Shown here in pieces: positions 8,110 through 48,109 of a DNA stretch of 64,000 nt. Positions within the stretch are counted from its first letter, which is position 1, and each line of letters begins with the position of its first letter. The stretch is from Polystyrenella longa. GTDB taxonomy: Bacteria; Planctomycetota; Planctomycetia; Planctomycetales; Planctomycetaceae. The translations under genes were made by a program, and so were the position numbers. Where the stretch lies: contig NZ_CP036281.1 in assembly GCF_007750395.1 (NCBI RefSeq), positions 4,487,001 through 4,551,000 on the forward strand, given 5' to 3'. The notes under the pieces were generated by a model that saw only the letters and a list, made by a program, of their open reading frames with translations, made no database searches and was not told the DNA's origin.

Positions 8110-9912
8110 CTATTGACCAAAGTTCTGCTTCGACCAGGGAGAATTTTTCATTACTGGGGCATCAGCAAAAGGATTGTTTGTATCCAATGCTGGTAAATAA
8201 CGATCCTGAGGGAGGGCAGTTGTCTGCGGAGCAGCCTGTGTCAGATCTCCAGTTGAGGGAAGATTCTGAGCGCCTGAGGTAAAAGGATTGTTCATTGCGG
8301 GAACATTCTGCACTGCGGGGACATTTTGCACTGCGGGGACCTGATGCATCGCGGGAATCTTGGTTGGTTGTGGATTGTGGTTCAAGTAATTAATCAGTTT
8401 CGGAGTCGCCTTGTTAATTAATACAATTCGAGGTTCCGCGTTGGGATCGCCATTGGGGCGAACCAGGCAAATGATCTCGGAGTTTCCGGATTGAGCCAAG
8501 GCTTGCTGCAACAGTTCCATCTCCCGGGACCCGGGCTGTGGCATCGTGTTCGCGACATTCGCATTGGGCTGAGATCCCTCGGCCAGATTCCCAAACGGAT
8601 CGCCCCCCCTCATTTGTTGCGAAGGCAAATTCTCTTCCAACGAAGGAAAGCTGGAAGGTGCGGGTGTATCGGCAATCACGCTTTCCGTTTCAATTGTTGC
8701 GGGATGCAGGAACGAAACCTGAGATTGGTCAAGGAATCGATAGATAGGCTTCAAGCTTGTGTAGATGCCCCGTTGATCTTCCGGTTGGGCACAGATACAG
8801 ACACCCACCAATTCTCCTCCCGAAGTAAACAGTCCGCCACCAGAACGTCCCCGCTCGGGTACGGTCGTGCATTCAATCGTGTCTGGACCTTCATAGCGGT
8901 TCAACTGTGTGACTTCCATTTTAATCTGAGTTGGCAGTTCGCCACCACCACAGCCAATACTGCAAACTTCTTCCTGTGGAACCGGCAGGCTGGTTAGAGA
9001 AGCTACAGGTGATGTGGGAAACTCATAATTAAACTGGAGATAAAGCAATCCAAGGTCGACTGCTTCCGCGTCGTAGTTAACCAGCTTCGCTTTGAGAGTG
9101 CGTGGTTTCCCTTGGTAAAACACGTCAACTTCGACTTCTTCTCCCTGCTTCAAACCACGGAAGATATGACCGCAGGAGAGAATATATGTTTTCTGATTAG
9201 AGCTGGAGATAATGGTACCAGTTCCAAAGTTGACTCCCCCTCCATCGCTAACTCGAATTCGTACAGTTGAGATCGCCCCTTGTGAAAAATCGACAGCAGT
9301 CTCGGTGGCTGCCAGGTCCGATTCCGGACGAACAGCCTGAGCAGTGACGGAGGCCGGTTTTTCCTTGGCACCTAAACCAAAGGATCCAAAATCAAACGCG
9401 TTGTTAGACTCTTCATTCACAACAAACTTGATTTCGTGTCCTGCTGAATTTCCAGATGAAGAAGTCGCCCCATCAAGAGATCGCTTTTCACCGTTCACTT
9501 CTGCGAGTGCTTTGTACTTTTGCAGATTATTATCACGCGCGGTCGTTGCTGTGGCCAGCATTTCCTGCAATGTCTGCTGAAACCCTTCCCCGCTGTAATA
9601 CAGTTGTCGTTGTTTGATTTTGCCGTCGACCAGCAGGACGAAGCAAGGCAGAGCATTTACGCCCATTCTGTTCATCAGGCCTGAGTTCTTGTCGGCGTCG
9701 ACCTTCTGGATTGGATATCCATCTCGAACCAGTTTGGAAACCATCGGTGCGATTTTGCGACAAGGTCCACACCAGGTGGCGGAAAATTCGAGGACAATAT
9801 TCCTACGTTCCATCTTGTCGATGACATCGTCTTCGATAGCGTAGAGAGAAGTCGTACAGAGTCCGATAATGAGGGTCGAGACAAGAATCCGTTGAGCTTT
9901 AATGGCTGGCAC
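8110..9912 (-). CDS. Exported thioredoxin-trypsin fusion protein
   Basis: The 600-aa product starts with a signal peptide (about residues 1-25, ending in TSLYA). A thioredoxin domain with the active site WCGPC (Cys48, Cys51) and the cis-Pro motif ALPC follows. A trypsin-like domain covers about 205-410 with a likely triad His249 (SCGHIF), Asp286 (AVDLGLL) and Ser357 (GRSGGGL). The tail is low-complexity, with VPAVQN repeats near 545-560 and many Pro/Gln/Asn. It probably acts outside the cytoplasm on disulfide-bonded or misfolded proteins; the pairing is an inference. The start is a GTG: an in-frame TGA lies 18 nt upstream, and the next in-frame Met (residue 34) would lose the signal peptide. 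Confidence 0.85.
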   Translation of the reverse strand: MPAIKAQRILVSTLIIGLCTTSLYAIEDDVIDKMERRNIVLEFSATWCGPCRKIAPMVSKLVRDGYPIQKVDADKNSGLMNRMGVNALPCFVLLVDGKIKQRQLYYSGEGFQQTLQEMLATATTARDNNLQKYKALAEVNGEKRSLDGATSSSGNSAGHEIKFVVNEESNNAFDFGSFGLGAKEKPASVTAQAVRPESDLAATETAVDFSQGAISTVRIRVSDGGGVNFGTGTIISSSNQKTYILSCGHIFRGLKQGEEVEVDVFYQGKPRTLKAKLVNYDAEAVDLGLLYLQFNYEFPTSPVASLTSLPVPQEEVCSIGCGGGELPTQIKMEVTQLNRYEGPDTIECTTVPERGRSGGGLFTSGGELVGVCICAQPEDQRGIYTSLKPIYRFLDQSQVSFLHPATIETESVIADTPAPSSFPSLEENLPSQQMRGGDPFGNLAEGSQPNANVANTMPQPGSREMELLQQALAQSGNSEIICLVRPNGDPNAEPRIVLINKATPKLINYLNHNPQPTKIPAMHQVPAVQNVPAVQNVPAMNNPFTSGAQNLPSTGDLTQAAPQTTALPQDRYLPALDTNNPFADAPVMKNSPWSKQNFGQ

Positions 9913-10669
9913 TCCCTTTGTCGTGGTGAATCAGAAGCGTCATGGCTTCGTCTCACCGAATCTGAGGGGACAGTGGGAGCAGAGAAAGTCTCAGACAAAA
10001 AGCGGGCAGCAAAATATCAGCCGTCCTCAACCGGGCAGGCTGAGAATCAGGACAAACTGTTTGGCTTCCGTGCCTTCATTGTAAGATTGACAAAAAACTA
10101 TTGCCAATTTTACAAAAACACCTCAGGAATTTGTGGGTGGGCTACTGAGGTGCTTGTTGAGCAATCCATGCTCCGATCACTGCGATCGTCTGTGTTATTA
10201 GGGTTTTGAATGAATTCAAATCCATTGAATCCATCCGACTTGAGGAGAAAAATCATTTTTCTCTCAATTACCAAACAAAAACTGCAGATGCCGTGCCAGA
10301 TCTTCTCTAATTTTGCCTGTTTTTCAACTATTAAAGAGAGACTGACAATATGAACAGATAGTCGGGCAAGTTATTCCCGATTTAGAAAAAACGACGCTCA
10401 TCTCCAGAGAGGTTGTGTACCTCACGGCTTCGGGCGGACTATAATAGATAACTTGAGCTCGCTTTCCGCCGCATATTCTCGGTCAATTGCCGAACTGGTC
10501 GCAAGAAAGAGCTCGACCATCCTCCTACGCCAATTCTCCATCAGGCTTGGCACTCGAGTACTGACGATTTTCACGAAGATGCCATACTGTCTTTTTGAAT
10601 AGATATCTGGCACAGTTTCAATCGTTAGTGGCTCCCTTCCTACCCCGAACCATCCGACGAGACGTCTGC
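9913..10669. other. Intergenic region between divergent genes
   Basis: These 757 bases separate the minus-strand thioredoxin-protease from the plus-strand ResB-like gene. Short open frames occur on both strands, but none has a family resemblance or good start signal. A perfect 19-nt palindrome (GAGAAAAAT-C-ATTTTTCTC, 10245-10263) could be a protein-binding site. The region 10595-10669 is open in frame with the downstream gene from a TTG, so a 25-residue longer product is possible. Confidence 0.4.
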
Positions 10670-12889
10670 ATGGCCCGCCCGAAAATATACGATTCTTCCC
10701 AGCCCCTGCCTGTTCGTTCGCTACTCTGGCTGTATGAATTTCTAGCCTCTCTTAAACTGGCTGTGATTCTCATTCTGTCATTAGCGATTGTGCTGGCATA
10801 CGCGACGTTTGTCGAAGCGCACCTGGGAACCAAAGCGGTCCAGTGGTACCTCTATCACTCCGGCGCATTTGCCGGATTGCTGTCCCTGCTTGCAATCAAC
10901 ATCTTTTGTGCTGCTTCGATCAGGTATCCTTGGAAACGGCACCAGACCGGGTTTGTTGTCACCCACATCGGCCTGCTCGTCCTCTTGGGAGGTTCGGCTA
11001 TTAGTTTTATGGGTAGCTTGAACTCGCAGATGCTCGTCTTCCTCGATGACTCCAGCCAGATGGCAATCGACTTGGACGAATCGGGTTACCTTCAAATCGA
11101 TGGCCTCCCTGATCACCCTGAAACTTTCACGCAGATAATCCCCTTGGGTCCGTTTAACTGGAATTCTTACCACGACAAACCGTTCAGCCAGAAACTGTCC
11201 GAACGATTTGGTTGGTCGTCGGAAGAGTGGGAACATGACCCTCTGAGTATTTATAAGAGCGATAACTATCAGATTGATGTCGTCAACTACTATTCCGCCA
11301 GCGAAGTACACCAGCTCCCTTTCCTCGACCTGACTTTCAGCCAGGAGGTTATCGGTGCGGAAATGGATATCGACCTCGAATGGCAGGAAGGGCGTCCCTT
11401 CGCGGAAGCCCCGTTTGGAGGTATGGGAAATGTCCTGATGTGGAAAACGGAGGATCCCAAGGATCTCAAACGTTTTCAGGAAGCCCGACCACAGCGATTC
11501 GTCGCGGGTGATGGCGTTCTGGCCGTCTGGTCGGAAGGCGAGGTCTACCACATCAATGTCGCCGAACTTCAACGCTTGAAGGAAAAAGAAGAAGGGCCTT
11601 ACGAACTCGATAATGGCCTGCAGCTCGAACTCCTTGGTTTCGCTCCTACACTTGATTTGCGCCTGCTGACGACGACTGGCGAATTCGTCTCCCAGAGTGA
11701 CCAGCCACAAATGCCCGCTGTCGAGCTATTAATCACCGAGCCTTCGGAATCAGAAGAGGGAAAACCCAAGGAATACCGCATCGTCCGCTTGGCGCGGTAC
11801 CCGGTGAACACCATCGTCACTCGTCCGGATGATTTCTACGTCGAATATTATCACCCGGAGATGGAGGGGCGTGTTGACATTTTGATGGGGCCCGATAATA
11901 AGCTCGCTTATCGTGTCTGGCAGAAGGGAACCAAAATGGTTGTCGGTGCCGGAGACCTCAACGTCAATGAGTCGATTGACACTTGGTCAATGGGGGGGGG
12001 CAAGAACGTCTGGTCGATGCGACTCAACCGTTTTCTCACTCCCGATGAAGACAACGATAAATCCTGGGACGTTTTTCCGGTTGAATTCAGCAAAGAGGCA
12101 GACGGACAGTCCAAACGAATAAAAGTCCGCGTCACCTGGAAAGAAGATAACCAAACCAAAACAGACGAGTTCTGGCTCGGTCAAAATCTCCCCTCTCCGT
12201 GGGTCGAAGCGGGTCGGTCACAAATTCACCGGACCGATCTGGGCGACGGCGAAGGGTTGAACGTCTCTTACAATGTAAGACAAACTGACGTCGGTTTCGC
12301 GATGAAACTGCTCGACTTCGATCTCGACGTCGATCCGGGAACCAGCATGGCTGCCAATTACACCAGCCATCTGCTGCAACTGGACGTACGCAACCGAGCG
12401 GAAATTACGGACCTTCAGGAACAACTGGAGGCCGAATCCAATCCCGCCCAACGACAGGTCCTCTCCACTCAAATTAACGAAACGAGAAAAGGCCTGTTCA
12501 CTTCCCTCTTCAAAGAATATGAAGAACTGCCTGAAGAGAAACGTGAGGAATGGATTGCTTCACACGACGAGGCGGCATTACATGTCATCACAATGAACGA
12601 ACCGCTCGACTATCCTGATCTGGAAGGTCGACCGTTACGGTTCTTTCAGGAGAACTACCTCCCACCCGACCCTCCCGCTCGAGCTTTTTATGGTTCAATC
12701 TTCCGCGTGAATTACGACCCAGGTCGTCCGGTTAAATATTTAGGTTCGGCTCTGATTACGTTGGGAATTTTTCTAATGTTCTACATGCGAGCGTATTTCT
12801 TTAAACGCACACACAAACAGAATGTTACAGCAGAACAAGCAGGCGAATCTGTTCCTCAACCCAGTGAAGAGGAACCTGTTTCGGTTTGA
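10670..12889 (+). CDS. Cytochrome c biogenesis protein, ResB-like
   Basis: The protein is about 739 aa from the ATG at 10670, or 764 aa from an upstream TTG. It has N-terminal membrane helices (LASLKLAVILILSLAIV and following segments), then a very large extracytoplasmic region, and a last membrane helix near the C-terminus (SALITLGIFLMFYMRAYF). This is the layout of ResB/Ccs1, the haem-handling partner of CcsA in system II cytochrome c maturation. The next gene is CcsA-like on the same strand, which supports the call. The soluble part is much longer than in Bacillus ResB (about 540 aa in total). The conserved haem-ligand histidines cannot be placed with certainty by eye. Confidence 0.83.
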   Translation: MARPKIYDSSQPLPVRSLLWLYEFLASLKLAVILILSLAIVLAYATFVEAHLGTKAVQWYLYHSGAFAGLLSLLAINIFCAASIRYPWKRHQTGFVVTHIGLLVLLGGSAISFMGSLNSQMLVFLDDSSQMAIDLDESGYLQIDGLPDHPETFTQIIPLGPFNWNSYHDKPFSQKLSERFGWSSEEWEHDPLSIYKSDNYQIDVVNYYSASEVHQLPFLDLTFSQEVIGAEMDIDLEWQEGRPFAEAPFGGMGNVLMWKTEDPKDLKRFQEARPQRFVAGDGVLAVWSEGEVYHINVAELQRLKEKEEGPYELDNGLQLELLGFAPTLDLRLLTTTGEFVSQSDQPQMPAVELLITEPSESEEGKPKEYRIVRLARYPVNTIVTRPDDFYVEYYHPEMEGRVDILMGPDNKLAYRVWQKGTKMVVGAGDLNVNESIDTWSMGGGKNVWSMRLNRFLTPDEDNDKSWDVFPVEFSKEADGQSKRIKVRVTWKEDNQTKTDEFWLGQNLPSPWVEAGRSQIHRTDLGDGEGLNVSYNVRQTDVGFAMKLLDFDLDVDPGTSMAANYTSHLLQLDVRNRAEITDLQEQLEAESNPAQRQVLSTQINETRKGLFTSLFKEYEELPEEKREEWIASHDEAALHVITMNEPLDYPDLEGRPLRFFQENYLPPDPPARAFYGSIFRVNYDPGRPVKYLGSALITLGIFLMFYMRAYFFKRTHKQNVTAEQAGESVPQPSEEEPVSV

Positions 12890-12994
12890 TCCGTTGATCT
12901 CCGAGGTAAAACCTCAATCGATCTTTTTACAGCAGATTCAACTTGCCACATTGCCTATAACGAAACCCGCACTACCCCATTGAGGTTGTTTGCG

Positions 12995-15787
12995 ATGCTT
13001 AATTTGAAGCGATTTTCTTCATTATTGATTCTTCTCTCGACTCTATTCATCACAGGGATGGAGACCGACAACGTTCGCGGCGACGAAGGTGCTGCCTCTG
13101 CGCATGTCGATTTTGACTGGTCTGCCTGGCAACGAATCCCGGTACTTGATGAAGGTCGTATTAAACCGATCGATACCTTCGCCGAGGAAGTCGTCACACT
13201 GGTCACCGGTCGTGCTAAATGGGAAGATCCCGAATCGGGAATCAAATACAAAGCTCCGGAACTTTTCTACGCCTGGATCGCAGATCCGGAAGAATGGTTA
13301 AACCGAAAAATTCTTTCCTGTAGCTTCCGTCCATTGCGTAATATTCTAAACACAGAAAATTCTGTTCTAGAAGAAAAAGGGACGTATGTCTCGGTCCGAG
13401 ATTTGATGGACTGGGACAAGTCCATGGAACAGGGAAAACCTGTTTTCTGGTCCGAAGATTTTCAGCAACGGATCCGTGACCTCGACACCGCCAGTAAACA
13501 GGAAAAACAACCCGATCAGGTTGGTGACACGGTTGAAGATCGACGCATCAACGCGAAAGTCGCAGAGCTTTACAAACATTTGCAAACCTTCCTGACCGTT
13601 CGAGAAGCGCGAAACTTATATATCGTACCGGGTCTCGATCCTCGCACAGTCACTGCCGCGTTAAATCCGGATGACCGTTTGAAACATTGGGTATCTCTGG
13701 GAGCCTTCCTCAACCGTGAAGATTGGGCAACTCATCCCGACGTCACCGTCGCAGCATTAATGGCTGACAGTGTGGTTCCTAACGAAGAAGAAGGCCAGCA
13801 GTCGCTTCTTTCCTGGGTTGTCGAGATGGGTGGCGTTTATCCTCCCGCACATTTCCCTCAACTGGCAAAAGCACATGCCTCTCGCGAAGAAGTCCTCGTC
13901 GGTGTCAAAGACTTGGAAGAATCGTTCAACGCGACTAGGACTGCATACGACGCTAATGATGCCAACGAATTCTCCAAGGCGATGATTAACTTCGAACAGG
14001 AAGTACGTCGACTCGCAGGAGTGATGGAAGAAAAGCGGGTGGAACTGACTCCTCCCGAAGCGAAATCGATGGACTTTGGTTTGTTCAATGACCAGATTTG
14101 GAATATTTATCAACCGCTCGAAATCGACCAGTCAGTCATCGCCTCTTCGGCCTATCCCGCAGAAGGCTCGACGAATTGGGAAATGAAATACAACAAATCG
14201 CAACCGTTCCGCTCGGCTTGGATTTACTTCCTCGTCGCGATCATCATCACGGTGCTGTCAATGATGGTTCGTAAGGAACGACTCGTCTATACACTGGCTT
14301 TGATTACCACCATCGGCGCAATCGTTTACTCGACGTGGGGGTTCTTTCTACGGATCGTCATCAGCGGTCGCCCCCCAGTCACCAATATGTACGAGACTGT
14401 CGTCTGGGTATCCTATGTGGTGGCCATTCTGGGACTCTGGTTCTGCTTGCTTCCGTTCCTCTGGCCGGGTTTAAAGAAAAGCTGGGATGCTACACGGCTT
14501 CCCTTTTCTTTCCGCAAATCGACGCCGGAACAAAAAGAGTCAAAAACCGATTCTTCCATGTCTATTTTCCGGGCCATCGCGCTCCTGTTGCAAGTCACTG
14601 GATTTGTCGGGATCGTGTGGTTCCTGACGAATAGTAATACGACCTTCAAGATCATCGATCTCTATCCTCCGATTTTCAATCACGTGTTTTCCTTCGGAGA
14701 ACTCGGTGTCTGGATAACGGGAATCTCTACTGTCCTACTTTCTGCCTGGTACTTCCCGCGGGCCGTCATTGCTTTAGTGGGTGGATTGATTACGGTTCCA
14801 GCCTCCTTCAAATCCTGGAATGACCAAACCTGGACACAAGCCTTCGACCGTCGCTTCTTCCTGCTGGGAGCATTGCCAGTCGCTTGTCTGGGAATGATGC
14901 TCGCTTACTTCGTCGGCGTGCGTAGCCCAGATATTCTAAACCCACGTATTGGCTCCATCGCCGCAGTTCTGAGAAATAACTACTGGTTGACGATTCACGT
15001 TCTGACGATCGTTTCCAGTTACGGTGCAGGCGCCCTCGCCTGGGGCCTTGGGAATCTCGCTCTGCTCTACTATCTGGTCGGCAGTTACCGAAAACCCGGA
15101 ACCGCGACCGCAGGGGCACCTAAGGAATCATTTTCTTCGCGAATGAAACAGGCGAAAAAAGCAATGAATCCCTCGGTCGTTGCCGCTTCATTGAAGAAGA
15201 ATGTGACTGGTTTCGGATCGGGTGATAAACATCTCGAAACATCCAAACGGCGACCACCGCAGGAAGTTTCTACCCTTGCGAATTACACCTACAAGGCAAT
15301 GCAAGTCGCCGTGTTGTTACTCGCTGCGGGTACGATTCTCGGTGGGCTTTGGGCCGATGTTTCCTGGGGCCGATTCTGGGACTGGGACCCAAAAGAAGTT
15401 TGGGCCTTAATTTCCCTGCTCGTCTATCTGGTCGTGCTGCACGGTCGATTCGCTGGCTGGGTCGGAACGTTGGGAACCAACATTGGCGGTGTACTCTGCT
15501 TTAATGCCATTCTCATGTCCTGGTACGGAGTGAACTTCGTTCTACCTCAAATCCACGGTTGGTTAACCGGCTCCAATGCCCCTACCGCCGTCGGACTGCA
15601 CAGCTACGCCACGGGTGCGGGTGGGTTGGAATATGTCATCGCCGCCGTGCTGTTGAACCTGTTATTGGTCGTCGCGGCCGGTAGTCGCTATTTCATGGAA
15701 ACCCATTTGCTCGATTCCGGAAGCGCCGCCGCTGTTCCCCCCTCTCCGGAAGAGGAGAAACCAGAACTGGAAACAACGTCCAAATAG
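12995..15787 (+). CDS. ccsA: Cytochrome c biogenesis protein CcsA (haem attachment), extended form
   Basis: CcsA exports haem and attaches it to apocytochrome c together with ResB/Ccs1. The 930-aa protein begins with a signal-like helix. A soluble region of about 370 residues follows, and then many membrane helices. The Trp-rich haem-binding WWD signature is clear in WGRFWDWDPKEVW near the C-terminus. Usual CcsA proteins are 300-400 aa, so the N-terminal half is an addition. It starts VDFDWSAWQRIPVLDEGRIK, a pattern I associate with fused Ccs proteins in Planctomycetes and Bacteroidetes. ATG 12995 is chosen because TGAGG lies 9 nt upstream; a TTG at 12980 would add five residues. A strong terminator follows. 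Confidence 0.88.
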   Translation: MLNLKRFSSLLILLSTLFITGMETDNVRGDEGAASAHVDFDWSAWQRIPVLDEGRIKPIDTFAEEVVTLVTGRAKWEDPESGIKYKAPELFYAWIADPEEWLNRKILSCSFRPLRNILNTENSVLEEKGTYVSVRDLMDWDKSMEQGKPVFWSEDFQQRIRDLDTASKQEKQPDQVGDTVEDRRINAKVAELYKHLQTFLTVREARNLYIVPGLDPRTVTAALNPDDRLKHWVSLGAFLNREDWATHPDVTVAALMADSVVPNEEEGQQSLLSWVVEMGGVYPPAHFPQLAKAHASREEVLVGVKDLEESFNATRTAYDANDANEFSKAMINFEQEVRRLAGVMEEKRVELTPPEAKSMDFGLFNDQIWNIYQPLEIDQSVIASSAYPAEGSTNWEMKYNKSQPFRSAWIYFLVAIIITVLSMMVRKERLVYTLALITTIGAIVYSTWGFFLRIVISGRPPVTNMYETVVWVSYVVAILGLWFCLLPFLWPGLKKSWDATRLPFSFRKSTPEQKESKTDSSMSIFRAIALLLQVTGFVGIVWFLTNSNTTFKIIDLYPPIFNHVFSFGELGVWITGISTVLLSAWYFPRAVIALVGGLITVPASFKSWNDQTWTQAFDRRFFLLGALPVACLGMMLAYFVGVRSPDILNPRIGSIAAVLRNNYWLTIHVLTIVSSYGAGALAWGLGNLALLYYLVGSYRKPGTATAGAPKESFSSRMKQAKKAMNPSVVAASLKKNVTGFGSGDKHLETSKRRPPQEVSTLANYTYKAMQVAVLLLAAGTILGGLWADVSWGRFWDWDPKEVWALISLLVYLVVLHGRFAGWVGTLGTNIGGVLCFNAILMSWYGVNFVLPQIHGWLTGSNAPTAVGLHSYATGAGGLEYVIAAVLLNLLLVVAAGSRYFMETHLLDSGSAAAVPPSPEEEKPELETTSK

Positions 15788-37134: not shown

Positions 37135-40100
37135 ATGAGCTCTCAGGGACCCAAGATGGATCTGAAGTTGTTCAGAGTCATTGGAGCAACCGCCTGTGCA
37201 ACTGTCGCGGCCGCCTCCTTATGGCTACTCTATCCGAACGATGCCGTAGAAACTGTGCGTGCATCAGAAGCCCGCGGACAGGTCAGTGCATCGCAATATT
37301 CCAAGCAAAGCATTTCCGCAACGCGATACCTGACTTTAGGTAAAGAGCATCTGCGGGCAGGTCGCCAACCGGCGGCTGTCCGGGCTTTCCGGGCCGCTCT
37401 CGCTAATGCCTCTGAACTGACCATGCAGGAGCGTAACGAAGCGCGACAATTCCTGAGTCAGCTCGACCCGACCTCAACTAAAGTGAGCAGTCAGGTCAGC
37501 GAGGAAATGCAAATTCCCGCTCAGGCTGCCAAAACAGTCGAAGCCATCAAAGTTGATGACCTGATGACTCGAGCCAAGCTGGCATTGCAACAGGGCGAAC
37601 GAAAAGACGCCCAACAACTTGCTGCCGAAGCTCAGAATCTGGTCGAATCGCACAATGTTGAGCTCTCACCAATCGCGGAGAAACCGGTCGATTTCCTGAG
37701 TGACCTCGCCTCTGGCAAGACAACCGTACGCGGACAGTCACCGGAAGAGGAAGAGAACCCCTTCCAGCTGGTAGATGAATCTGACACGGCTGATGCGACC
37801 TCGTCTTTGAAAGAGAAAGCTCAATCGCTCCTCAACGATGCGGAAGCAGACTTGAAAGCGGGCTTTTACGCTCAAGCACGAAAAAAAGCATTGCAAGCCA
37901 GCGAACTTCATTCCGACTGGAACCTGTTCGAAAACAGCCCACAAGCGATCATTCGCGAACTGGACCGACTCTCGGGTGGAAAGACTCTCTCCAGCGAATC
38001 AGCAGTCACTGCTAATGCTGATGTGACTGAAACTAAGAAGAAAGTAGTTGAACTGCTTCTTGAAGCTCGCTTGGCTATTCAGGCTGGCAAGCTTGATGTT
38101 GCACGAGAGAAAGCAATTGCTGCTCAACAATACAAAGTTTCCTTCAGTAAATACGACGACCGACCGGACCTGCTCCTGGGCGATATCAATCGACTCGAAA
38201 CGAGCAAAGGCTTTAACGCCTTCAACCCAAATCCGGCAGACAGCCAGGCACTGCAAAACAGCTCGAAATATCTGGCTGCACGCAAACTCCTGACTGACGC
38301 TCGCGAATTACTGATTGTCAACAACCTTACCGAAGCCAAAGCGAAAGCACTGGAAGCGGAAGGACTGGATGTTGTTTATGAAATTAACGATGACCGTCCC
38401 GATGCTGTCCTGCTCGAAATCAATCGTCGTATGGCACGGCTGAATGGACAGGAAGGAGCACCTTCTCTTTCCGCCAGCCAGTTTGGTCAACTCGACGAAA
38501 TGGCAAACGCCCTGGCATCGAAAACGGCTAAACAACAAGATCAGCAGAACAACGCTGACACAGGTATGGAACGATCAGCTCAAGGTGAAGTCGCCATTTC
38601 TCAAATCCAGCAGATTGGATACGAAGAAGTTGCGGCCAACGAAGGCACTAACCCCTTCGCACCTATCGAAACAGCCGCACAGGAAATCAACACTGTTGTT
38701 CCTGATGGTTTAACAGCAACCCAGTGGTTCGACCATGGGGTCAAACTGATGCAAAGCAATCAACGCGACGAAGCCTACAAGGCCTTCGTCAAAGCTCATC
38801 AGTCTGGCGATCAACTCGATACCTTCCGTGCTCGTAACCTTTCTGAACTGCTGCAGGCAACTGCACCGCGAAAAGGAAATGGAATCGAACTGACCACAGC
38901 GACTCAGGACTTCAGTGCCGAGCCAGCTCCTCTCGATCTGGCAGCACAGGAAGAAGTCGTTCGCTTCGATCGCTTGCGAACTGAAGTGATGAACGCAACC
39001 TTCCGTGCCGATCGTCTGACCGAGAAAGACCCGGAGAAAGCTCTGGATATCATCGACCGCGCCATGTCGACTGTCGAAGGTTCTCAACTTGCAGAAAATA
39101 TGTCGAGTCCGTTGATCAAACAGCTGACTGCTTCCCGCGTTCAGGTGGAGCAGTACCAGAAACGGATGGCTCCGATCCTGGAACAGGAAAAACGGAATAG
39201 GGATGTAGAAGAAACAATTAAAACAGAGATCGATACATCCGTCCGTATTGAACAGGAAATCGGCTCTCTCGTTGAAGACTACAACAAGTTGATGAAACAG
39301 GGACATTACGCTGACGCAGAACGTGTGGCTAAAGAAGTTCGTGCTCTCGACCCGGCCAACCCGGTTGGAGTCAGCATGTTCTGGAAAGCCCGCATCACTC
39401 GTCGCAACTCCGATATTGAAGACCTGAAAGAACGCAAAGAAGACGCCTTCGTGGCAACTCTATGGGAAGTTGAAGAAGCGGCTGTACCACACAGTGGTTC
39501 TCCCTTCCAATACGGTGAAATTCAGGAGTGGAAAGATCTGACCGAGCGACGTAAACATATGCGTTCGGATGGACGTCACCGCACCATGCGGGAAATTCAG
39601 ATTGACGAAAGTCTGCATGACCGAATCTCACTGAACTTTGAACAGGCTCCTATCTCGGAAGTCTTCGAACATATCGAAAAGATTACCGCGATCAACATCT
39701 GGCTCGATACCAAAGCGATGACCGATGCAGGTGTCGAATTGTCGACTCCGATCACAATCAAAGTAGATGGTATTCAGTTACGAAGTGCTCTGTCACTGAT
39801 GCTGGAACAACTCGGCCTGGCCTACATGATCGATCACGAAGTTCTCAAGATCACTTCGATTGAAAAACAAAAAGGGGACATGCGGTCGGTACCTTACGAC
39901 GTGGCTGATCTGGTTATGCCGCTGAATCCGGAAGCCTACAACCCGAACTTAGGAAAAAGCCCGTTCGCAGGCGTCAACGACGGCATCGACAGCTATAACT
40001 TCAGCGTCAATGGTTCGTCGGGTGGCAATAACATGGCCAGCGTCCCGAACGTATTTACTGGAAATGGTTTTGGCGGAGCGGGAGCAAAATCCCAATCAGT

Positions 40101-41703
40101 CAGTGGCCCTTCTCATGCCGACTTCGAATCTCTTCGACAGGTTCTCATCTCTACAGTTGAGCCTGACACCTGGGAAGAAGCAGGTGGAGAAGCTTCCATC
40201 AGCCATCACGATAGTACATTGACCTTGATTATTCGTCAGACAGAAGATGTCCACTCGGAAATCGCTGACTTGCTCGAACAGCTGAGAACGCTGCAAGACC
40301 TCCAGGTTACGATTGAAGTACGGTTCATCACTGTCAGTGACCGGTTCTTCGAACGTATCGGTGTCGACTTTGACCTCAATGTTCAAGACAACGTCGATGG
40401 TGACGATTCGGGCTATCCCGGCTTTGGTTCTCCTCAAGGTACTGGAATTGCAGGTACCACGGGAACGACGGGTACCACGGGTACCACAGGAACTACAGGC
40501 ACGACTGGTACGACTGGTGGCACCACAGGTACAACCGGCACGACTGGTACAACCGGCACGACTGGTACAACCGGCACGACTGGAACAACCGGTACAACCG
40601 GAGGAGGAGGAGGCTCACCATTTACTCCCCAGAACGTCTTAAACACGCCCCCTCTCGATTCTTGGCCGAACTCGGGTACGATCGTGGGTCTGTCCCAACC
40701 AGGAGTATTCACCTCCGACTTGGACGTACAGTTCCAACAGGGTTCGTTTGACATCGGGGTACCTGACTTCGGCGGTTTCCAACCGACCGCAGGTATTCAG
40801 GTCGGTATGGCCATCTTGAGTGACCTGGAAGCATTCTTCTTCATCCAGGCTGCTCAGGGAGACGAGCGTTCGAACCTGTTGTTCGCTCCGAAAGTAACTA
40901 CTTATAACGGTATCTCAGCAACCATTACGGACTCGGTTTCACGACCATTCGTGACTTCGCTCCAACCGGTTGTTGGTAACTTTGCTGTCGGCTTTCAGCC
41001 GGTCATTACAACACTTGATGAAGGGGTTACTTTGACGGTTCTGCCAGTCGTCTCGGCGGACCGACGATATGTCCGTGTGACCGTGACTCCACAATTCTCC
41101 AACGTGACTGACGTCTTTACTTTCGCCTTCCTCTCTGGTGGTACTGGAGCAGGTGGAGTTGGTGGAGGCGGTGGTGTCGGCGGAACTGCGGGTGTCAACG
41201 GTGGTAACATCGGTGGAAATACAGGTGTCGGCGGTATCAGTGGCACCAGCGGTATCAGCGGTAACAACGGGATTGGAGCCGGTGGTATCGGAGGAATAGC
41301 AGGAACCACGGGAACCACGGGCCAGACTGGAACCACAGGCCAGACAGGCCAGACAGGAACCACGGGAACCACGGGAACCACGGGAACCACGGGAACTGGT
41401 GGAGATGCGGGAGCCGGATTATCCGTCTCAGTACAACAGCCTGTTTACGAACAACTGTTCGTCACCACAACTGTCTCTGTACCGGATGGTGGTACTGTCG
41501 TCCTCGGTGGTATCAAGCGACTCCGTGAAGGTCGAAACATGGCAGGGGTTCCGATTTTGAATAAAATCCCTTATGTCAGTCGACTCTTCAAGAACACGGG
41601 TGTTGGTCGTGAGACTGAAAGCCTGATGCTGATGGTGACTCCTCGAATCATCATCCAGGAAGAAGAAGAAGCTCTGCTGGGTGTCGAAGAAGACTCCCTG
41701 TAG
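37135..41703 (+). CDS. Secretin-family protein with TPR-like N-terminus and Gly-Thr-Thr repeats
   Basis: The 1522-aa protein has an N-terminal hydrophobic segment (about 13-30). Several repeats of about 100 residues follow with LL.ARLAI(Q)AGKLDVAR(E)KA-type helices, then a coiled region. An STN/secretin-N-like domain covers about 822-905 (NFEQAPISEVFEHIEKITAINIW is its core). The C-terminal secretin domain runs from about 995 to 1500, with VTIEVRFITVSDRFFERIG and the closing VPILNKIPYVSRLFKN. Secretins form multimeric outer-membrane channels for type II secretion or pili. No gsp or pil gene is adjacent. Two collagen-like Gly-Thr-Thr tracts interrupt the secretin domain. AAGGGAAGA lies upstream of the ATG. 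Confidence 0.87.
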   Translation: MSSQGPKMDLKLFRVIGATACATVAAASLWLLYPNDAVETVRASEARGQVSASQYSKQSISATRYLTLGKEHLRAGRQPAAVRAFRAALANASELTMQERNEARQFLSQLDPTSTKVSSQVSEEMQIPAQAAKTVEAIKVDDLMTRAKLALQQGERKDAQQLAAEAQNLVESHNVELSPIAEKPVDFLSDLASGKTTVRGQSPEEEENPFQLVDESDTADATSSLKEKAQSLLNDAEADLKAGFYAQARKKALQASELHSDWNLFENSPQAIIRELDRLSGGKTLSSESAVTANADVTETKKKVVELLLEARLAIQAGKLDVAREKAIAAQQYKVSFSKYDDRPDLLLGDINRLETSKGFNAFNPNPADSQALQNSSKYLAARKLLTDARELLIVNNLTEAKAKALEAEGLDVVYEINDDRPDAVLLEINRRMARLNGQEGAPSLSASQFGQLDEMANALASKTAKQQDQQNNADTGMERSAQGEVAISQIQQIGYEEVAANEGTNPFAPIETAAQEINTVVPDGLTATQWFDHGVKLMQSNQRDEAYKAFVKAHQSGDQLDTFRARNLSELLQATAPRKGNGIELTTATQDFSAEPAPLDLAAQEEVVRFDRLRTEVMNATFRADRLTEKDPEKALDIIDRAMSTVEGSQLAENMSSPLIKQLTASRVQVEQYQKRMAPILEQEKRNRDVEETIKTEIDTSVRIEQEIGSLVEDYNKLMKQGHYADAERVAKEVRALDPANPVGVSMFWKARITRRNSDIEDLKERKEDAFVATLWEVEEAAVPHSGSPFQYGEIQEWKDLTERRKHMRSDGRHRTMREIQIDESLHDRISLNFEQAPISEVFEHIEKITAINIWLDTKAMTDAGVELSTPITIKVDGIQLRSALSLMLEQLGLAYMIDHEVLKITSIEKQKGDMRSVPYDVADLVMPLNPEAYNPNLGKSPFAGVNDGIDSYNFSVNGSSGGNNMASVPNVFTGNGFGGAGAKSQSVSGPSHADFESLRQVLISTVEPDTWEEAGGEASISHHDSTLTLIIRQTEDVHSEIADLLEQLRTLQDLQVTIEVRFITVSDRFFERIGVDFDLNVQDNVDGDDSGYPGFGSPQGTGIAGTTGTTGTTGTTGTTGTTGTTGGTTGTTGTTGTTGTTGTTGTTGTTGTTGGGGGSPFTPQNVLNTPPLDSWPNSGTIVGLSQPGVFTSDLDVQFQQGSFDIGVPDFGGFQPTAGIQVGMAILSDLEAFFFIQAAQGDERSNLLFAPKVTTYNGISATITDSVSRPFVTSLQPVVGNFAVGFQPVITTLDEGVTLTVLPVVSADRRYVRVTVTPQFSNVTDVFTFAFLSGGTGAGGVGGGGGVGGTAGVNGGNIGGNTGVGGISGTSGISGNNGIGAGGIGGIAGTTGTTGQTGTTGQTGQTGTTGTTGTTGTTGTGGDAGAGLSVSVQQPVYEQLFVTTTVSVPDGGTVVLGGIKRLREGRNMAGVPILNKIPYVSRLFKNTGVGRETESLMLMVTPRIIIQEEEEALLGVEEDSL
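40453..40599 (+). repeat. Gly-Thr-Thr coding tandem repeat in secretin
   Basis: Forty-nine codons encode near-perfect Gly-Thr-Thr triplets (one extra Gly breaks the phase). At DNA level the unit is 9 nt with synonymous variation (GGTACAACC, GGCACGACT), and an 18-nt higher-order repeat in the second half. It is collagen-like in pattern (Gly at every third position) but without proline. Confidence 0.9.
41302..41397 (+). repeat. Second Gly-Thr-Thr / Gly-Gln-Thr tandem repeat in secretin
   Basis: Thirty-two codons encode Gly-Thr-Thr triplets mixed with Gly-Gln-Thr. The DNA is more uniform than in the first tract (GGAACCACG repeated), suggesting recent expansion. A Gly/Ile/Asn-rich segment precedes it from about 41145. 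Confidence 0.88.
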
Positions 41704-45118: not shown

Positions 45119-48109
45119 GTGGACGAAGAACGTCGTGGTATCTACGAAGACCTTTCGAGCTTAATCGAAGGGGACATCCGCTGTGATGCCAGTTCACGAG
45201 CAATTTACAGTGCCGATGCGAGCCTGTACGCCATCGACCCTCTGGCCATCGTCGCCCCGAAACATAGTGACGACGTTGTCGCTCTGGCGCGGTATGCCCA
45301 TTCCAAGAATTATTCGCTGACACCGCGAGGCGCTGGAACGGGAACGACAGGTAGCTGTCTCGGCAGTGGAATCATCGTCGATTTTTCCCGCTATATGAAT
45401 CAGATCGAATGGATCGATGAAGAGACGGTACGTGTCCAGCCTGGAATAACCCGGGCACGGTTAAACCAGGAACTGGCCAAATCGGGACGTTACTTTGCTC
45501 CTGATCCTGCGAATGCGGATGTCACTACGATTGGAGGGATGCTGGGCGTCAATTCCGCCGGTTCCCGCTCCGTTCATATCGGTACTACCCGCGACCATGT
45601 CCACAGTATTGAACTCGTCACCAGCACAGGTCATCGATTCGAAGCCGGGCTGGAGTCGCTACGAATTCTGACTTCTCTTCCGCCTCAGACGTCCCATGTA
45701 CCGCTGGTGAATGGAATCACATCAACCGAGGATCCTGTTCTCGAACAGAACTACAAACGAACGCTAGTCAGTAAACTCGCCAAACTTCTCGAAGACAATG
45801 AAGAGCTGATCTACGCCAAACAACCTTCGATGTTGAGAAACACTTGCGGCTACATCGTTCGAAAAGTGCTTCTTGAAGGCCGAGTCAATCTTCCCCGATT
45901 GCTGGTCGGCTCTGAGGGAACGTTGGGAATGTTCACCGCCGCAACATTGCATACGACTCCTCTTCCCGAGTTCCGCGGCATCGCTCTGATTCTATTCGGT
46001 CAAACTCAAGCGGCGATCCAGGCAATGCAGGCAATCACCCCACTGCGTCCTTCTGCCTGCGATTTGCTCGACCGTCGATTAATCTCTCTGGCTCGCGAAG
46101 CCGACGATAAATTTGCCCAGTTAATCACGCCTGCCGCAGAAGCAGCAATGTTGGTAGAAGTGACCGGGTTAAACGAAGCCGACGTAAAAAGACGTCTGCA
46201 GAGTATGTTACAAAAAGTGCGTAGCCTGCAGATTAAAGCGGTCTTCGCTTCTGAATCCTACGACCGCGAAGACGTCGAGTTCCTGTGGTCATTGCCACGT
46301 CGCGTTGTTCCGCATCTTTCCCGTTTAGGTGGAGTCGAACGTCCCGTCCCGTTTGTGGAAGATGTCGCAGTCTCCCCCGATCGGCTGGGCGATTTCCTGA
46401 GCGATGCTCAGAAAGTATTCCAGAAGCATCAGGTCACGGCGTCCCTGTATACACATGCCGCGTCCGGCCAGGTTCACTTTCGCCCATTTCTTCCCACACC
46501 GACTCAACAAACGGGCCACAAGCTGGAAGCAATTGCACGCGATTTATACCAAATCGTCTTTCGCTATGAGGGAACAATCAGCGGAGAACATGGCGACGGG
46601 CTCTCTCGTACTGCTTTCATCCGCTCCCAGTACGGAGATCTTTACCGCGTCTTCCAGCAGGTAAAGGATTTGTTTGATCCACACAATCTGATGAACCCGG
46701 GTAAGATCATCAGTGACGATCCGCACTTGACCACACGCTATCTTCGACCTTCGTTACCTCCCGAACCTCAATACGTCAAACTGCAAGTGGAATGGACTCC
46801 TCAGGAACTCTTCAACGAAACCTCTGCGTGCAACGGTTGCGGTAGCTGCAAATCGACCGCAGTCGACTTGCGAATGTGTCCATTTAACAAACGGGAAAAC
46901 ACCGAAGAAAACAGCCCTCGCGCCAAAGCCAATCTACTGCGAACTTTCCTTACTCGCCGGGAATTGGCCCACCGCTGGTCGGAAGAAGAAATCCGAGAGG
47001 TCACCGACTCCTGCTTCAACTGCAAACAGTGCCAACTGGAATGTCCTTCAAATGTGGACATTCCCTACATGGTGCTGGAACTCAAAGCGAATTACGTGGC
47101 AACGCACGGGCTGAAACAACCTGACTGGGTTCTATCCCGCGCCCATTCCTTCGGCAGCCTCGGTTGCTCCACATTTTTCTTGGCGAATCGATTGATTGGG
47201 AACCGTCTTTCTCGCTGGTTCATCGAAAAGATCGTGGGCATTTCCCGTTACCGCAAACTTCCGTATTTCGCCCGTAGAACTTTTGTGAAAGGCCCCGGTC
47301 GCGCGTATCGTAAATTGCCGCCCCGCTCAGGAAACAATGTTCCCGTAGTTTATTTCATGGGGGACTACGCGAATCATCACGACCATCAACTGGCACGAGC
47401 GTTTATCGCAATCCTGGAACATCACGATATCCAAATTCACATCCCACCCCACCAGGCCAGTTCCGGTATGGCCATGATCTCCGCAGGCGACTTTGTCGCT
47501 GCTCGCGATGTCGCTACCACCAACATTCGGGAATTGGTCGAACTCGCACGTGAAGATTATCGAATTGTTTGTACAGAGCCGGCGTCCGCCATCGCACTTA
47601 AACAGGAATACCCTCGCCTGGTCGATCATCCTGATGTTCAAATCGTCGCTGACCAGGTTATTGAAGCTGGCGCATTCCTGGAAGAACTGCATCTTCAGGG
47701 AAAATTGAAAACTGATTTCAAACCGCTCCCCCACCGCCTCGGTTACCACACACCCTGCCATCTCAAAGCCCTCGGCAAAGGAACTCCCCTGATGCGGCTG
47801 TTGGAGTTGATACCTGAACTGGAAATGATTCCTATTGAGGAAGGATGTTCCGGAATGGCGGGGACTTTCGGGATGGCCCGGGATACCTTCGATCAATCGC
47901 TGGAAATCGGCCACCGGCTCATCGAACGGATGCAAAATCCCGATTTCGATTTCGGCACCACCGAATGTGCCAGTTGTAAAATGCAGATGGAACAGGGAAC
48001 GACGATGCCGACGTTACACCCTCTGAAAATTCTAGCCCTCGCTTATGGACTGCTCCCTGAAGTCGAAGCGAAACTCCGTCCCAATAATCAGAGACTCATC
48101 GTATCATGA
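45119..48109 (+). CDS. FAD-binding and iron-sulfur oxidoreductase, fused GlcD/GlcF-type
   Basis: The 996-aa protein combines four parts. A PCMH-type FAD-binding domain (about 38-215) has PRGAGTGTTGSCLGSGIIVD and VNSAGSRSVHIG. A FAD-oxidase C-terminal domain runs to about 530 (SGEHGDG, GDLYRVFQQVKDLFDP). Two 4Fe-4S motifs are CNGCGSCKST...CPFN near 571 and CFNCKQCQLECP near 632. A CCG-type cysteine-rich region (YHTPCHLK, then TECASCKMQME) closes the protein. It should oxidise a 2-hydroxy acid such as D-lactate or glycolate and pass electrons to a carrier. GTG 45119 has TGAGGA about 4 nt upstream. Its TGA overlaps the moaD ATG by 4 nt. Confidence 0.88.
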   Translation: MDEERRGIYEDLSSLIEGDIRCDASSRAIYSADASLYAIDPLAIVAPKHSDDVVALARYAHSKNYSLTPRGAGTGTTGSCLGSGIIVDFSRYMNQIEWIDEETVRVQPGITRARLNQELAKSGRYFAPDPANADVTTIGGMLGVNSAGSRSVHIGTTRDHVHSIELVTSTGHRFEAGLESLRILTSLPPQTSHVPLVNGITSTEDPVLEQNYKRTLVSKLAKLLEDNEELIYAKQPSMLRNTCGYIVRKVLLEGRVNLPRLLVGSEGTLGMFTAATLHTTPLPEFRGIALILFGQTQAAIQAMQAITPLRPSACDLLDRRLISLAREADDKFAQLITPAAEAAMLVEVTGLNEADVKRRLQSMLQKVRSLQIKAVFASESYDREDVEFLWSLPRRVVPHLSRLGGVERPVPFVEDVAVSPDRLGDFLSDAQKVFQKHQVTASLYTHAASGQVHFRPFLPTPTQQTGHKLEAIARDLYQIVFRYEGTISGEHGDGLSRTAFIRSQYGDLYRVFQQVKDLFDPHNLMNPGKIISDDPHLTTRYLRPSLPPEPQYVKLQVEWTPQELFNETSACNGCGSCKSTAVDLRMCPFNKRENTEENSPRAKANLLRTFLTRRELAHRWSEEEIREVTDSCFNCKQCQLECPSNVDIPYMVLELKANYVATHGLKQPDWVLSRAHSFGSLGCSTFFLANRLIGNRLSRWFIEKIVGISRYRKLPYFARRTFVKGPGRAYRKLPPRSGNNVPVVYFMGDYANHHDHQLARAFIAILEHHDIQIHIPPHQASSGMAMISAGDFVAARDVATTNIRELVELAREDYRIVCTEPASAIALKQEYPRLVDHPDVQIVADQVIEAGAFLEELHLQGKLKTDFKPLPHRLGYHTPCHLKALGKGTPLMRLLELIPELEMIPIEEGCSGMAGTFGMARDTFDQSLEIGHRLIERMQNPDFDFGTTECASCKMQMEQGTTMPTLHPLKILALAYGLLPEVEAKLRPNNQRLIVS

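Follow-up and report, generated by a model that had tools for sequence, protein, structure and literature searches.

A thioredoxin fused to an HtrA-like protease in Planctomycetia, a candidate reductive protease of the periplasm

Architecture of the fusion gene

The window, a stretch of 64,000 nucleotides of the planctomycete Polystyrenella longa (contig NZ_CP036281.1, positions 4,487,001 to 4,551,000, from a genome that is a single contig of 6.1 Mb), carries at 8110-9912 on the minus strand one open reading frame (ORF) of 600 amino acids with a GTG start, which joins a thioredoxin (Trx) to a trypsin-like protease. Pfam recognised both parts above the gathering score: Thioredoxin (PF00085) over residues 33-117 with E=2.9e-15, and Trypsin_2 (PF13365) over residues 230-371 with E=3.8e-17. 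A first-pass annotation of this DNA had described the ORF as carrying a signal peptide; the ORF is confirmed, and a signal sequence was read by eye over residues 1-25 (9838-9912, minus strand, as are all coordinates within the fusion gene below), with KAQR, a hydrophobic stretch and LYA/IE. No lipobox was seen by eye at C19, and from the signal sequence we infer export of the fusion protein by Sec. The coordinates given in that annotation were correct, but its feature list left the strand unstated and lacked Cys247 and Cys321 of the protease, a conserved C-terminal module and the neighbouring cytochrome c genes. The latter lie divergent from the fusion gene on the plus strand and encode a ResB-like cytochrome c biogenesis protein (10595-12889, identified by family search) and a CcsA-like cytochrome c assembly protein (ccsA/ccsBA; 12980-15787, family search and profile). 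The genes around the fusion are of planctomycete types (PSCyt1, PSD1, DUF1501). Elsewhere in the window, a 1522-amino-acid protein (37135-41703) has a C-terminal secretin domain as its sole Pfam match, and a 996-amino-acid protein (45119-48109) combines FAD-linked oxidase, 4Fe-4S and cysteine-rich (CCG) domains.

In a model covering residues 25-521, confidence is high for the Trx and moderate to high for the protease, and disordered linkers lie at residues about 148-200 and 403-456; the pTM is only 0.46, so that nothing is said here of the mutual orientation of the domains. Behind the second linker follows a 50-residue module, residues 463-512 (8377-8526), modelled at a pLDDT of about 60-76 as helix, two strands and helix (439-450, 456-460, 471-475 and 480-488 in the numbering of the model). 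This module is present in 104 of 158 distinct fused proteins, counted by their distinct C-terminal 250 residues. The VPAVQN tail described in the first-pass annotation is real in the window, where an 18-bp unit repeated in tandem about 2.5 to 3.3 times encodes it (8296-8355), but it is no feature of the family, being found in one of the 158 proteins, the window's own; we therefore attach no importance to it.

The Trx domain spans residues 28-125 (9538-9831) by Pfam and alignment, with a ten-residue mean pLDDT of 82-95 over residues 35-104. It scores 56.6 bits against PF00085 (gathering score 23.5) and 51.5 bits against the thioredoxin equivalog model, below the cut-off of 96.8. Its active site, WCGPC at residues 47-51 (9760-9774), had been correctly read as intact, and both cysteines are present in 46 of 46 copies aligned in a first round and in all 155 readable copies among 157 distinct fusions, the Trx of the other two being truncated by the end of the contig. 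Among the 46, the cis-Pro and the Phe after it are invariant, the residue before the cis-Pro is aliphatic (I, L, V or M) in 43, and the commonest middle residues of the CxxC are Gly (34/46) and Pro (40/46), the window having CGPC. The column that presumably corresponds to Asp26 of E. coli Trx is acidic in 37 (29 Asp, 8 Glu) and lacks an acid in 9. By its make-up, then, the fused Trx looks like a reductase.

The Gly and Pro of the CGPC, the aliphatic residue before the cis-Pro and the acid at the Asp26 place all speak against an alternative in which the Trx introduces disulfides into secreted proteins or rearranges them while the protease clears the failures, much like a DsbA or DsbC fused to DegP. 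Such an enzyme would also have no evident partner oxidase, as searches of its own genome for DsbB and VKOR returned no match to either, although the same absence lends it some support, in that disulfide formation, if any, would have to proceed by other means. On this evidence we regard an oxidising or isomerising Trx as very unlikely. The genome does hold one DsbD_TM match and four further Trx-like matches besides the fusion; across 14 control genomes, matches to DsbD_TM, DsbB and VKOR were found in 10, 6 and 3, respectively.

The protease domain covers residues 215-403 (8704-9270), a placement that rests on Pfam, profile, model and fold matches, and it resembles HtrA/DegS. It was modelled alone because a full-length mixed alignment had put loose protease fragments onto the Trx part; with an input alignment that included 15 relatives, AlphaFold returned a trypsin-like fold with a pLDDT of 89 and a pTM of 0.84. 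DegS is the best match in the PDB (VIA-align Z 26.0 and rmsd 3.4 across 192 residues), other HtrA proteases also match, and MarP (Rv3671c, PDB 3k6y) gives Z 24.2 and rmsd 1.8 across 178 residues. In the family profile, the columns of His249 (9166-9168), Asp286 (9055-9057) and Ser357, in GRSGGG (8842-8844), align with the His, Asp and Ser of DegQ and DegP, and alignment and fold together point to these residues as the catalytic triad, as the first-pass annotation had proposed. No NCBIfam model reached its cut-off on the fusion protein, including the full-length Do/HtrA model TIGR02037 (17.7 bits, cut-off 416.2) and the MarP model NF033740 (17.2 bits, cut-off 250).

PDZ is the domain through which HtrA proteases usually bind clients, and none was found among the seven Pfam matches of the fusion protein at E up to 1. 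Some other part must then bind clients, which raises the possibility that the Trx acts as a docking or chaperone-like domain that keeps clients which are unfolded or carry thiols within reach of the protease, its redox chemistry being minor. Absence of the Trp before the CxxC, seen in 44 of 155 readable fusions, would fit such a role. However, conservation of the CxxC in every readable copy, and of the cis-Pro in every aligned one, points to catalysis, and we consider a Trx that serves mainly for docking improbable.

Conservation and distribution of the fusion

The pairing of Trx with a trypsin-like protease had been thought uncommon in the first-pass annotation, which is not the case in this class. 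The first round covered 59 genomes (the window's own and 58 relatives) and yielded the 46 aligned frames, of which 45 were compared at the triad, one frame ending at a contig edge, and 44 kept it. For the class, a profile built from the protease part (A1) was used with a threshold of E 1e-25, and by this measure the protease type occurs in 144 of 198 class genomes. All 51 genomes of the window's own family have a protease match, mostly one per genome; families f3, f4 and f97 contribute none of the 144. Across 294 genomes of the phylum, best scores are at least 190 bits within the class and at most 84 bits outside it, and the best protease score in 200 genomes of another phylum is 71.5 bits. 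A Trx in the same ORF was found at none of the 28 protease loci inspected outside the class. A scan of genome contigs with the single protein returned one locus, a Pseudomonadales thioredoxin.

Most of the class matches listed were scored, giving 167 distinct protease sequences above 150 bits, 157 of them with a Trx in frame; these 157 leave out three viral loci (L229, L312, L314) that were fetched afterwards. Of the 157, 154 have His-Asp-Ser, one has His-Glu-Ser and two, from one genus, have lost the triad. Loss of the triad in orthologues had been named beforehand as the evidence that would count against the assignment, and what we find instead is its retention in 155 of 157 fusions, in line with the first round. 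The fusion is not an oddity of one genome; the pairing is conserved over much of the class.

Ten of the 167 proteases have no Trx in frame. For two of them (L163, L174) no judgement is possible because the sequence starts at a contig end, three (L117, L118, L119) lie on viral contigs, two (L213, L220) are short proteins of one genome, and three (L215, L217, L219) are degenerate. The last three belong to family f2 (genomes G459, G414 and G433), and each is a single ORF in which, reading the domains by eye, an ECF-sigma-like region and a hydrophobic segment are combined with a degenerate copy of this trypsin-like domain, its Ser being replaced by Asn or Thr or its His lost; their make-up suggests sigma factors that sense the envelope and are built around a protease no longer active. 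A further locus, L097 (genome G050), is a long ORF with two degenerate protease copies in tandem. The two fused copies without a triad (L029 and L072, genomes G029 and G161) are pseudo-proteases in which the His has become Ser or Ala and the Ser has become Cys, and from which C247 and C321 are gone. They are sisters on the tree and thus represent one event. Their CxxC is kept, which suggests that the Trx can outlive protease activity.

The three viral loci are Trx-protease fusions on IMG/VR contigs classed as viral, and all three have Ala at position 247. In a quick tree, L312 and L314 were placed with two family rows inside the fused clade of the class (SH-aLRT 90, on a long branch), and L229 with another subgroup, marked by GDSGG and a C-terminal hydrophobic segment. 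Collagen-like repeats follow the protease in L312 and L314, and the contig of L312 carries a DNA primase. In a phage collection, all 11 matching records match only within residues 32-121, the Trx part.

The cysteine pair of the protease

Two cysteines of the protease domain are placed by alignments: Cys247 (9172-9174), two residues before the catalytic His, and Cys321 (8950-8952), which in the model sits in a GCGGG turn just past a strand (129-134 in the numbering of the protease model). Both are present in all 155 distinct fusions above 150 bits with an intact triad, and both are absent from the two triad-less copies. At the same two places, L104 and L105, HtrA rows from the genome of the window, have Asn, a clade of other classes has Ala or Ser at the first and Cys at the second, and the unfused L098, L099 and L101 have Ala at the first and Ile or Val at the second.

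This conservation raises the possibility of a built-in redox switch, in which a C247-C321 disulfide would hold the protease off or on and the fused Trx would make or break it, so that proteolysis would respond to the redox state of the envelope. A precedent exists in E. coli DegP, which is stimulated by reduction of the disulfide in its LA loop, human Trx1 being able to reduce it in vitro (PMC4339722). The pair is not, however, exclusive to Trx fusions, as L098, L099 and L101 had at first suggested: it is kept without a Trx in L117, L119, L213 and L220, and a Trx is present with Ala247 in L229, L312 and L314.

We also asked whether the characters change together on a tree of 102 rows, for which a random 66 of the fused rows were retained; duplicates were removed, as were L100 and L107, which have no letter at 247. 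Eleven rows absent from this tree, among them rows with C247 but no C321, were restored later (L102, L103, L106, L108, L114, L115, L121, L122, L123, L127 and L316). On the 102 rows, the label 'fused' needs five changes, two of them forced by well-supported branches, and of two contrasts between fusion and cysteine pair, 0.6 went in the same direction and 1.0 in the opposite one, values that became 0.5 and 0.5 of two with the 11 rows restored; the contrasts thus have no direction. For C247 and C321, joint change appeared in about 3.5 of 4 contrasts on the 102-row tree, but in 1.2 of 3 once the 11 rows were back, and we dropped the idea that they co-vary as partners. With the restored rows included, 72 rows have both cysteines, 16 have neither, 14 have C321 alone and nine have C247 alone, several of these nine being viral loci fetched by a Cys-Gly/Ala-His pattern that favours C247. 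C348, considered as a third partner, showed no sign of this in the contrast tests. A C247-C321 disulfide is possible, but co-variation gives it no support, and the joint loss in the two pseudo-proteases counts as one event. Since co-variation was not upheld with all rows, our confidence in the switch was lowered, and we now think it unlikely.

Proposed function and relation to known systems

The position of the fusion gene near ccsA recurs outside the window. In about 18 kb around the fusion from 20 relatives and the window, with neighbours named by sequence reading except for the window's CcsA, a ccsA relative stands beside the fusion in seven of 21 neighbourhoods, including L336, where the frame picker had missed the fusion. 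A cysteine synthase-like gene is also found near the fusion in four of the 21 (L321, L325, L327, L336). When a CcsA profile (A6) was run on the same 198 class genomes and compared with the protease census, fusion and CcsA shared a contig at a distance of 5.6-6.7 kb in 19 of the 51 family genomes (the window's included), representing nine of 26 genera; ten of the 19 come from one genus (g54). The 32 unlinked genomes include some fragmented assemblies, and no linkage in other families was seen among the matches listed. Given one CcsA match per genome of about 5-9 Mb in all 51, random placement would hardly produce this spacing; shared ancestry suffices to explain it, and shared function need not follow. 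Genomes with CcsA also exist in families f3, f4 and f97, in which no protease was detected at E 1e-25; the fusion protein is therefore not required for cytochrome maturation and is no core maturation factor.

Three precedents bear on what the fusion protein may do. Oxidised PsbO is stable, and reduction by thioredoxin makes it a substrate of the Deg protease HhoA (PMC3446894). When maturation fails, apocytochromes c to which haem has not been attached are degraded by DegP, and their CxxCH, if disulfide-bonded, has to be reduced before haem attachment (PMC5742617, PMC3420020). The third is the stimulation of DegP by reduction described above. The PsbO precedent fits best, because the fusion protein has two conserved active sites on a flexible linker, no PDZ and a Trx of the reductase type. 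For genomes with the gene linked to ccsBA, the apocytochrome precedent would indicate the likely clients, and the DegP precedent would lead to the switch; the three are not mutually exclusive.

We propose a reductive protease of the periplasm: the fusion protein would first reduce disulfide-bonded clients, apocytochromes being candidates, and then cut them. We hold this proposal to be about evenly balanced between right and wrong. After export by Sec, the Trx domain would receive electrons from the genome's single DsbD/CcdA-type membrane protein and reduce the disulfides of misfolded or immature clients, and the HtrA-like domain would then cut the loosened chain. Lacking a PDZ, the protease would take its clients via the Trx domain. 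In lineages where the gene is linked with ccsA/ccsBA, the likely clients would be apocytochromes c whose CxxCH has been oxidised before haem attachment. In support of this proposal, both active sites are conserved together over the class, the CxxC even where the Trp before it is lost; the reductase-like Trx, the one DsbD_TM match with no match to DsbB or VKOR, and the ccsA linkage in nine of 26 genera also speak for it. Against it, the linkage may reflect descent, the DsbD-like protein need not serve this particular Trx in a genome with four other Trx-like matches, nine of 46 copies have no acid at the Asp26 place, and the one genus with pseudo-proteases appears to keep the Trx after the protease has lost its His and Ser. 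The first-pass annotation had suggested a quality-control enzyme for disulfide-bonded substrates; with the active sites kept and a two-protein precedent at hand, this stands as the best single reading, though as a prediction.

A broader version would unite these elements in a class-wide enzyme whose Trx both opens clients and resets a C247-C321 clamp on the enzyme's own catalytic His, so that proteolysis would proceed only when reducing power is available; ccsBA-linked lineages would use it to police oxidised apocytochromes c, and phages would have taken up a version of it. The fall in C247-C321 co-variation lowered our confidence in this version as well, and we regard it as a long shot.

Trx and HtrA parts are each well known, and it is their combination, its conservation and its linkage with ccsA that appear to be new. 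A keyword search of the open literature, a scope that lies mostly outside subscription journals, returned no paper that describes a Trx-trypsin fusion, at least in the parts of those papers that were available. A planctomycete proteome paper (PMC8567305) mentions trypsin-domain proteins and, in its available portion, has no thiol or disulfide word; the word 'thioredoxin' is absent from the main text of a survey of PDZ proteins (PMC6411480).

Among known systems, the HtrA/Deg proteases DegS, DegP and DegQ, which we take to be MEROPS S1C, share fold and catalytic residues with the window's protease and provide its best profile and fold matches. The fusion protein differs from them in having no PDZ, GRSGGG around the Ser, an N-terminal Trx, and Cys where the HtrA rows of its own genome have Asn. 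MarP shares the trypsin-like protease, yet its NCBIfam model gives only 17.2 bits. With TrxA-type thioredoxins (PF00085), the fusion has in common the CxxC, the cis-Pro and, in 37 of 46 copies, the acid at the Asp26 place, but its Trx is fused, presumably exported and below the equivalog cut-off. E. coli DegP is likewise an HtrA protease whose activity rises on reduction and which Trx reduces in vitro, although its cysteines are Cys57 and Cys69 in loop LA and it has no fused Trx (PMC4339722). The closest parallel is Trx with HhoA on PsbO, where a stable protein becomes a Deg substrate once its disulfide is reduced; two separate proteins act there and PsbO is the client (PMC3446894), whereas here there is one polypeptide and the clients are candidates. 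For these, the cytochrome c synthetase neighbourhood in nine of 26 family genera offers a concrete first class. Trx-dependent degradation by a Deg protease is thus known with two proteins, and the fusion, by joining both steps in one polypeptide, provides a compact system for asking directly if disulfide reduction acts as the gate to proteolysis, whether of the client, of the enzyme itself or of the two.
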